This document shows, piece by piece, positions 3,650 through 4,738 of a stretch of DNA of 10,210 nt (positions within the stretch are counted from its first letter, which is position 1; the number at the start of each line of letters is the position of its first letter). Source of the stretch: Methylomicrobium sp. (GTDB lineage Bacteria > Pseudomonadota > Gammaproteobacteria > Methylococcales > Methylomonadaceae); the NCBI GenBank assembly GCA_007135635.1, contig SLIO01000231.1, forward strand, positions 1 through 10,210. Direction: 5' to 3'. The translations under genes were made by a program, and so were the position numbers. The notes under the pieces were generated by a model. The model was given only the letters and a program-made list of their open reading frames with translations, was not told the origin of the DNA and did not search any database.

Positions 3650-3721
3650 TTCGGTAAAGCGCCGAGGGTTTGTATCGGCTTCTGCCCATCGTTAAGCTCT
3701 GTATGCGTTTCCATGCTGGAG

Positions 3722-3869
3722 GGGCTGTGAAAGTATAAGCGAATACATCATAAAAATTTATTCACGATTAAGAACATCAAGGTAATGAAGAAAAAAGCCG
3801 AAAATCAAAGGCCTAGTTCTGCATGCACTTCATGGTTAGTTCGTTATATTGAATACTTTTACAGCCTTA
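3722..3869. mobile_element. MITE-like inverted-repeat element, ~148 bp, no coding capacity
   Basis: The ends carry a 14-bp inverted repeat with one mismatch: GGCTGTGAAAGTAT at 3723-3736 and ATACTTTTACAGCC at 3853-3866. The direct repeat GGAG (3718-3721 and 3870-3873) is a candidate 4-bp target duplication, although the two ends are not equally trimmed (one extra base left, three right), so exact borders are uncertain. Inside are inverted 9-bp-periodic AAG/CTT motifs. The length, the lack of an ORF and the position inside another palindrome fit a non-autonomous element. No transposase family can be assigned. Confidence 0.42.
3761..3842. repeat. Inverted, 9-bp-periodic ATGAAG-type repeats inside the MITE-like element
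   Basis: At 3764-3790 AAG recurs every nine bases in the register gat-taAGa, cat-cAAGg, aat-gAAGa. At 3817-3842 the same type of motif runs on the opposite strand (CTTCATGGTTAG, read in reverse as CTAACCATGAAG followed by TGCATGCAG). The two arms are degenerate and flank an AT-rich centre. Confidence 0.4.
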
Positions 3870-3970
3870 GGAGCATGGGAACAAGAAAACCGGGAGAGAT
3901 TAGGTGGCTCGCTTAACAGGTTGCCTTGTGGGCCCGTTGCCGAAATTTGGTTAGCAATTGGCATTTACAG

Positions 3971-4000
3971 TTTACCCGGTCGCGCGGCTTCTGGTATATT
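3971..4000 (+). promoter_or_regulatory. Candidate sigma70 promoter with extended -10 for the small membrane gene
   Basis: TATATT at 3995-4000 is preceded by TG at 3992-3993, giving an extended -10. A partial -35 (TTTACC, 3971-3976) lies 18 bases upstream. A start near 4007 would give an ~80-nt leader before the ATG at 4087. Judged by eye only. Confidence 0.4.
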
Positions 4001-4074: not shown

Positions 4075-4080
4075 AAGGAG
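4075..4080 (+). promoter_or_regulatory. Strong Shine-Dalgarno that supports the 30-residue ORF
   Basis: AAGGAG lies six bases before the ATG at 4087 in an A-rich context. It is among the best ribosome binding sites in the window and is a main reason to call such a short ORF a gene. Confidence 0.75.
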
Positions 4081-4086
4081 TAAACG

Positions 4087-4179
4087 ATGGCAACGGGGTT
4101 ATATATTCTGACGACGCTATTTGTCGCATATGTCGTCTATGTGGTGGTCGGGGACGAAGTTAAAAAAAATACCGAATGA
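4087..4179 (+). CDS. 30-residue single-helix membrane microprotein, unknown function
   Basis: I do not recognise this protein. It is a 30-residue ORF with a strong SD (AAGGAG, 6-base spacing). Residues about 5-21 form one hydrophobic helix rich in Val and Tyr, ending GDEVKKNTE. The lysine-rich tail suggests an N-out/C-in inner-membrane topology. Residues 5-25 match residues 5-25 of the 149-residue protein encoded at 4289 at 17 of 21 positions with no gaps. Of those 17 identical residues, 11 use different synonymous codons, so the protein rather than the DNA has been conserved. That is strong evidence that this is translated and selected. Conserved positions are T9, T10, F12, A14, Y15, Y18, G22 and D23. 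A terminator-like hairpin overlaps the stop codon, so it may be made from its own short mRNA. It could be a partner, competitor or assembly helper of the longer paralogue; this is inference. Confidence 0.75.
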   Translation: MATGLYILTTLFVAYVVYVVVGDEVKKNTE

Positions 4180-4196
4180 GTCCTACGACCTTTTTT
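4146..4196 (+). terminator. Terminator-like hairpin overlapping the end of the microprotein gene
   Basis: GGTCG (4146-4150) pairs with CGACC (4186-4190), and GGAC (4152-4155) pairs with GTCC (4180-4183), with a single-base bulge on the left and a 2-base bulge on the right. Six T residues follow at 4191-4196. The loop is long (24 nt) and A-rich, so strength is uncertain. It would end or attenuate transcription between the microprotein and the 149-residue gene. Confidence 0.45.
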
Positions 4197-4221
4197 AAAC
4201 GATGAAAAAATAATAACAAAC

Positions 4222-4259
4222 TGCCCAATGGTCATGCCGAATGGCGAAGTTACTGGGCA
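4222..4259 (+). other. Imperfect palindrome before the 149-residue gene
   Basis: TGCCCA (4222-4227) pairs with TGGGCA (4254-4259), and an inner GCC (4236-4238) pairs with GGC (4243-4245) around GAAT. Together they could fold as a hairpin in the leader of the next gene. It has no T-run, so a terminator is unlikely. An operator or mRNA-stabilising fold is possible, and chance cannot be excluded. Confidence 0.25.
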
Positions 4260-4288
4260 ACTCAATTAATTAACTGGAGGAAGGGAAT

Positions 4289-4738
4289 ATGGCGGAAATA
4301 TTGTTTATTTTAACGACGATTTTTGTGGCTTATGTAGTTTACGCGGTGGTTGGCGATCAAGTGGCCGATATGAAGGCCATTACGTCGAAAGCCGATTCGC
4401 ACCCAGTGAAAGCCGAAGCGGCTAAAACCACTGAAGTGAAAGTTGTCGAAAATAAAACGGTACCGCGAACCGCTAAAAAATCGTCTGAGCCTGTTGCTAA
4501 GGCGCCTGAGGCGGATCAATCGTCCGCAAGTAAGAGCGGTTTGCGCGATCCAGCGACCGGCGAAACGGCCAGTATTCCGACCAATTACCGCTTTGCCAAG
4601 CGCTGGATAAAAGAGGCGATGGTCAAAGAAGGCTTGCTCGATAAGGTCTATAAAAACACCGAATTGGACGATGAAGCCAATACCAAAATAAAAACCGCTT
4701 TAGACGGTTTGCTGCAAATGGATAAATACCGGGCCTGA
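4289..4738 (+). CDS. Hypothetical single-helix membrane protein with charged linker and small C-terminal domain
   Basis: I do not recognise this 149-residue protein. Residues about 4-22 form one transmembrane helix that is nearly the same as the whole 30-residue protein encoded upstream. Residues about 26-85 are a low-complexity Lys/Ala/Glu/Ser/Thr/Pro linker, probably disordered and, from its many lysines, cytoplasmic. Residues about 86-149 look folded and helical: LRDPATGE (85-92), then FAKRWIKEAMVKEGLLDKVY (102-121) and a final helix to MDKYR. There is no signal peptidase site, no cysteines and no catalytic motif I can name. The start is well supported: GGAGG at 4276-4280 lies 8 bases before the ATG. 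No clear promoter lies between 4197 and 4288, so readthrough from the promoter near 4000 is likely. It converges on pilR. The layout suggests a membrane anchor holding a small adaptor domain at the inner face; this is inference. Confidence 0.82.
   Translation: MAEILFILTTIFVAYVVYAVVGDQVADMKAITSKADSHPVKAEAAKTTEVKVVENKTVPRTAKKSSEPVAKAPEADQSSASKSGLRDPATGETASIPTNYRFAKRWIKEAMVKEGLLDKVYKNTELDDEANTKIKTALDGLLQMDKYRA

Follow-up and report, generated by a model that had tools for sequence, protein, structure and literature searches.

Dispersed free transmembrane helices related to an anchored protein that spans the order are indicated by comparison of the sequences, a finding larger than the pair of adjacent genes from which it arose. 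The window (the whole stretch of DNA analysed, 10,210 nucleotides, contig C287 of genome G000, with Methylotuvimicrobium buryatense 5G (L032) as nearest named relative and source of the genus name used here) contains an open reading frame of 30 residues, the microprotein, followed by a gene of 149 residues, the long protein. The microprotein is apparently the Methylotuvimicrobium member of a free-helix family found so far only in family f1, which we take to be the Methylomonadaceae. Numbers beginning with g and f are labels of the analysis for genera and families, g1 being the genus and f1 the family of the window.

The gene order of the locus is aminopeptidase P, two FAD-binding monooxygenases (presumably of the UbiH type), the microprotein and the long protein; 3' of the long gene, on the opposite strand, lie a sigma-54 response regulator and then a PilS-type kinase, beyond which are two genes that we assume to be sucC and sucD. 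The features of the region are as follows:

3971..4000, + strand: promoter-like TTTACC-18-TATATT with TG upstream, before the microprotein, 9 of 12 matches
4075..4080, + strand: Shine-Dalgarno-like AAGGAG, 6 nt 5' of the microprotein start codon, from sequence
4087..4179, + strand: microprotein open reading frame, 30 residues, MATGLYILTTLFVAYVVYVVVGDEVKKNTE, a single helix with a lysine-bearing C-terminus
4276..4280, + strand: Shine-Dalgarno-like GGAGG of the long gene, from sequence
4289..4738, + strand: long protein gene, 149 residues, with a helix at residues 2-33, a low-confidence linker to about 80 and a conserved domain at about 83-149
4301..4363, + strand: residues 5-25 of the long-protein helix, common to the microprotein

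Promoter-like sites are as frequent in this region (two) as in shuffled sequences (2.0 expected), and the site at 3971-4000 is weak taken alone; its TTTACC and TATATT hexamers and their spacing are kept in all seven aligned genomes. A search of the window against Rfam at the gathering cut-off gave no match. In the gap before the microprotein, approximately 300 bases (3650-3960) are absent from four of the five other genomes of the genus, and the fifth (L005) carries another insert at that place.

Both reading frames lie where the original prediction had placed them, and residues 5-25 of the two proteins are identical at 17 of 21 positions without a gap, 11 of the 17 identical residues being encoded by different codons. 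Chance similarity of the two helices is ruled out by 200,000 shuffles of the 21 residues, which gave a mean of 3.1 matches and a maximum of 11, against the 17 observed. Among 764,897 windows of 21 residues from open stretches of the fetched loci, a soft control since these loci were fetched for holding the family, the 25 distinct peptides printed with 9-11 matches were all family helices, in register or shifted (peptides with at least 12 matches were counted only). The two helices match at 15-17 of 21 positions within each of seven genomes, at a pS between them of 0.56-0.80.

From its conserved frame, start and stop and from purifying selection, the 30-residue open reading frame looks like a real, if putative, protein-coding gene. 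Start, frame and stop are intact in all six genomes of the genus (the window's own and G001-G005), none having the frame-breaking changes that would have told against the original prediction, and an intact version of 32 residues is present in a genome of another genus (G021). Within g1 the pN/pS of the microprotein is 0.22 (six sequences), calculated from few changes (a mean of 3.2 synonymous and 2.5 non-synonymous differences per pair); that of the long protein is 0.20 over its full length and 0.11 over its first 25 residues. The free helices of two other genera give similar values: 0.227 in g15 (19 of the 20 sequences read, excluding the divergent L073) and 0.221 in g11 (six sequences of a single type, from 18 loci read). 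An ancient duplication maintained by selection, as originally proposed, is well supported as the origin of the two helices by their synonymous divergence in seven genomes together with the low pN/pS within the genus, and homologues with the helix conserved are present in related genomes.

Short open reading frames encoding a helix with the motif described below were found in 13 genera of f1 (g1, g17, g6, g15, g11, g14, g2, g5, g12, g20, g25, g28 and g29), gathered by profile searches of 301 genomes, by profile searches of chosen genomes and by reading fetched loci. Among the matches listed, which cover genomes without a match only in part, the g15 free helix occurs in 20 of 21 genomes. Most free helices are of 23-44 residues, with one g5 member of 58, and not all are plain single helices, the g20 members (L139 and L144) having a second hydrophobic stretch. 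The g29 frame would have to use a TTG start codon, and the profile matches there are weak (E 0.006-0.018). A purine-rich stretch precedes the start in many, not all, of the frames. When 55 genomes, mostly chosen for having no free helix seen before, were searched with the broader profile A6, only four gave convincing matches in short frames (G032, G033, G146 and G189) and most gave the long protein. In 14 genomes from other families, profile A5 found only two matches, each in a frame about as long as that of the long protein, and two further genomes of other families (G041 and G048) have weak profile matches (E 0.009 and 0.029) for which E-values rather than rows are listed. Beyond the order, 183 genomes of the class yielded five weak partial matches to the free-helix profile (E at most 0.1), fewer than expected by chance, and a wider spread in the class is rejected. 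The window's genome has a third helix relative (L154, contig C437, 2413-2604, minus strand), in a frame of about 63 residues beginning MSEFIYVLTVVYFIFVIKEAEGEN; profile matches of this type (E 6e-6 to 3e-5) occur in all six genomes of the genus, and the sequence was read in the window's genome.

The pairing of microprotein and long protein as a unit, which the original prediction had assumed, does not extend to the family: the free helix lies directly before the long gene in only three of the 13 genera (g1, g17 and g6) and elsewhere in the other ten. In g14, g2, g5 and part of g11 it is directly downstream of a transketolase-like gene of about 630 codons (L104, L107, L108, L116, L078 and L113); the L107 enzyme, the sole one scanned, scores below the NCBIfam transketolase cut-offs. 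Other neighbours mostly vary between genera. A tree of PilR, encoded by the neighbouring gene, made from the 20 of 30 loci with a piece of at least 250 residues, joins g1 and g6 with support 1.0, so that the tandem order looks like one event, g17 having given no piece and being absent from the tree.

Conservation in 56 distinct free helices is highest at Tyr6 (100%), Thr9 (98%), Tyr15 (96%), Val16 (91%), and Leu8 and Tyr18 (89% each), in keeping with the earlier view that the helix is more than a greasy anchor. That view had named T9, T10, Y15, Y18, G22 and D23 as fixed residues; T9, Y15 and Y18 stand, whereas Thr10 (12%), Gly22 (32%) and Asp23 (60%) do not. The 56 do not include repeats, the shortened copy in G008 (see below), or L138 and L146, of which the start codons are unclear, yet both of these have isoleucine-tyrosine at the same place. 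Helical periodicity of the conservation is not significant in either set (p = 0.08 free, p = 0.27 anchored), and a conserved helical face was rejected on this test, no docking face being evident.

Free and anchored helices are distinguished at two positions: at position 6 each of the 56 distinct free helices has Tyr and each of the 53 distinct anchored helices of alignment A4 has Phe, and Glu3 is present in 98% of anchored but 8% of free helices. The free helices of the tandem genera have the free pattern at both positions. In a tree of 109 helices, one split (support 0.80) parts the free from the anchored set with one misplacement. These patterns favour one old free-helix lineage and two subfamilies over repeated recent births from the long gene, a reading of the alignments that is weakened by possible convergence and by the nature of the tree (26 columns, with rows gathered by profile search). 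Tyr6 is not wholly confined to free helices: two long proteins outside A4 (L028 and L037) carry it, distant families have other residues there, and the shortened G008 copy combines Glu3 with Tyr6, so that intermediates exist. This copy (L075, 3451-3669) consists of the helix and part of the linker of the long protein without the C-terminal domain, in a genome with an intact long gene elsewhere, and is itself a possible intermediate.

The long protein was found in 258 of 301 genomes of the order, in 46 of 50 genera, using a profile of 76 relatives, a count in which not every match is full-length and the match in G009 is its free helix. Of 185 genomes drawn across the class, it was found in two, both of this order, and some near-complete genomes of the order gave no match (for example, G007, G025 and G042). 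In an alignment of the 76 relatives the N-terminal helix hardly varies, the linker is variable and the C-terminal region is conserved, P88, G91, E92, Y100, F102, R105, W106, K108, A110, V112, E114, Y121 and Y147 being invariant. The AlphaFold model (overall pLDDT 72, pTM 0.43) has the same layout: a helix at 2-33, then a linker modelled with low confidence and, from about 83, a small domain with pLDDT 79-91 by blocks. The original description of a C-terminal domain of about 60 residues is upheld by both. Foldseek found no PDB neighbour of this model below E 4.5, and a known fold for the long protein is rejected. The C-terminal domain of about 65 residues encoded within 4289-4738 (NYRFAKRWIKEAL...EGLL..VYKN.EL) has no clear Pfam family or fold match. 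In many of the relatives examined, the long gene is convergent with the response regulator gene, and in others it is beside unrelated genes; the convergence is probably merely an old gene order.

At E 0.1 the microprotein matches nothing in Pfam or NCBIfam; the window's long protein likewise lacks a Pfam match at E 0.1, and its single NCBIfam match scores 13.8 bits where the cut-off is 80. FeoB_associated (PF12669) matches six of 14 free helices weakly (best E 0.003, cut-offs not printed), but the window's microprotein is without a match at E 0.1 and the 14 aligned free helices have one cysteine in total (L076), in contrast to the Cys-rich tail of PF12669; the microprotein does not qualify as a FeoB-associated Cys-rich membrane protein. 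Nor are these proteins members of FixQ/CcoQ (PF05545), which matches two of 14 free helices (best E 0.046) and four of 76 long relatives (best E 0.012) and neither protein of the window at E 0.1. The commonest Pfam match among the 76 long relatives is SasG_E (13 members, best E 0.00081, cut-offs not printed). A PDB sequence search at E 10, in a file that leaves out chains of unknown residues and is not a full test for native-membrane helices, returned no chain for the free helices or for the window's long protein, and one chain at E 1.5 for a long relative from G039.

Small accessory subunits such as CydX, KdpF, CcoQ/FixQ, CcoM and AcrZ, of 20-50 residues with a single pass, are conserved in their lineages and often missed in annotation. 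The free helices are likewise small, single-pass and lineage-conserved, but a helix paralogous to the microprotein also anchors a protein of 149 residues, and the Pfam matches of the relatives are weak. In plants and animals, microProteins are short proteins with one domain of a larger paralogue. The short frame described here is likewise paralogous to one part of a larger protein and maintained by selection, as expected of a domain-sharing microprotein; unlike the eukaryotic cases, it is bacterial, what it shares is a transmembrane helix, and the free form mostly lies apart from the long gene. In methane and ammonia oxidisers, supernumerary helices have been reported to accompany pMMO/AMO in native membranes, and the free helices would resemble them as extra single helices in such membranes, but no PDB chain in the file searched matches them or the window's long protein.

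Tentatively, the microprotein may be a small accessory membrane protein that docks, by way of the same motif, on the kind of partner used by the anchored protein, an explanation that is preferred here at less than even confidence. It draws on the conserved frame, start and stop, purifying selection, shared motif, two subfamilies and dispersed loci. With lysines following the helix, the free helix would be oriented N-out/C-in. Conservation of Y6, L8, T9, Y15, V16 and Y18 in proteins that are little more than a helix suggests specific membrane contacts, and this pattern would be the means by which the helix recognises a membrane partner; because the motif is common to free and anchored proteins, the partner may be of a common kind. 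Lacking the cytoplasmic domain, the free form would be an accessory subunit seated in a docking site of the kind that the anchored form uses, and the two forms could then pair or displace each other. We infer, in agreement with the original prediction, that the free helix may pack with, cap or compete with the anchored helix; the mechanism is a reasoned guess.

Several other explanations were weighed against docking on a common kind of partner. The free helix may instead be an extra subunit of some large membrane complex of methanotrophs, such as a respiratory or methane-oxidising enzyme, with the anchored protein sharing its descent and having another partner. Dispersed loci and the distinct Tyr6 signature argue for such independence, as do the extra helices reported for pMMO, while the weak FeoB_associated and FixQ similarities fit the type of protein only; but free and anchored helices are conserved at largely the same residues (conservation along the two sets correlates at r = 0.68), no PDB chain was found by sequence at E 10, and AMO/pMMO genes do not closely track the long protein. 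Among 61 genomes, drafts in which absences are soft and with the G009 match counted being its free helix, 45 have both, six the long protein only, eight the AMO family only and two neither, and a simple link with AMO/pMMO genes is rejected. Independent subunits are considered somewhat unlikely. Direct pairing of the microprotein with the helix of the long protein into hetero-oligomers, which would tune the oligomeric state of the long protein much as transcription factors are tuned by domain-sharing microproteins, would account for the tandem order in g1, g17 and g6, for the single promoter-like site before the tandem in g1 and g17, and for the 15-17 of 21 matches between the helices of these two genera, but fits poorly with the separate location of the free helix in ten genera and with the consistent differences at residues 3 and 6, and is judged rather unlikely.

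The size, hydrophobicity and dispersed loci of the free helices recall the small hydrophobic toxins of type I toxin-antitoxin systems. However, the same helix is kept in an anchored protein throughout the order, T9, Y15 and Y18 are conserved, and the sole sigma-70-like site on the minus strand between 3640 and 4860 is at 4599, away from the microprotein frame, making a toxin highly improbable. Hardly credible is a leader peptide or a degenerating copy left by tandem duplication of the long gene, despite the position of the frame directly upstream of that gene in three genera: no intrinsic terminator-like site was found on the + strand between the two frames, the short frame is under purifying selection and unbroken throughout the genus, and its dispersed relatives have open frames. 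On the same grounds, a pseudogene is out.

Proteins of 23-35 residues are readily missed by gene callers, and a family of them in 13 genera of environmentally important methane oxidisers, together with an anchored paralogue, offers a concrete handle in its motif, its loci and a tractable host strain. In the most far-reaching form of the docking idea, which is speculative and quite improbable, the methanotrophs of f1 would have an unrecognised class of free helices that share a docking code, IYxLTxxFxxYxIY, with the anchored protein, occupy the same site on a methanotroph-specific assembly and so set the number of cytoplasmic domains that it presents. If docking is true, a hidden component of methanotroph membranes would have been identified; if false, the family would still be a clear example of a transmembrane helix that has been retained in both free and anchored form.
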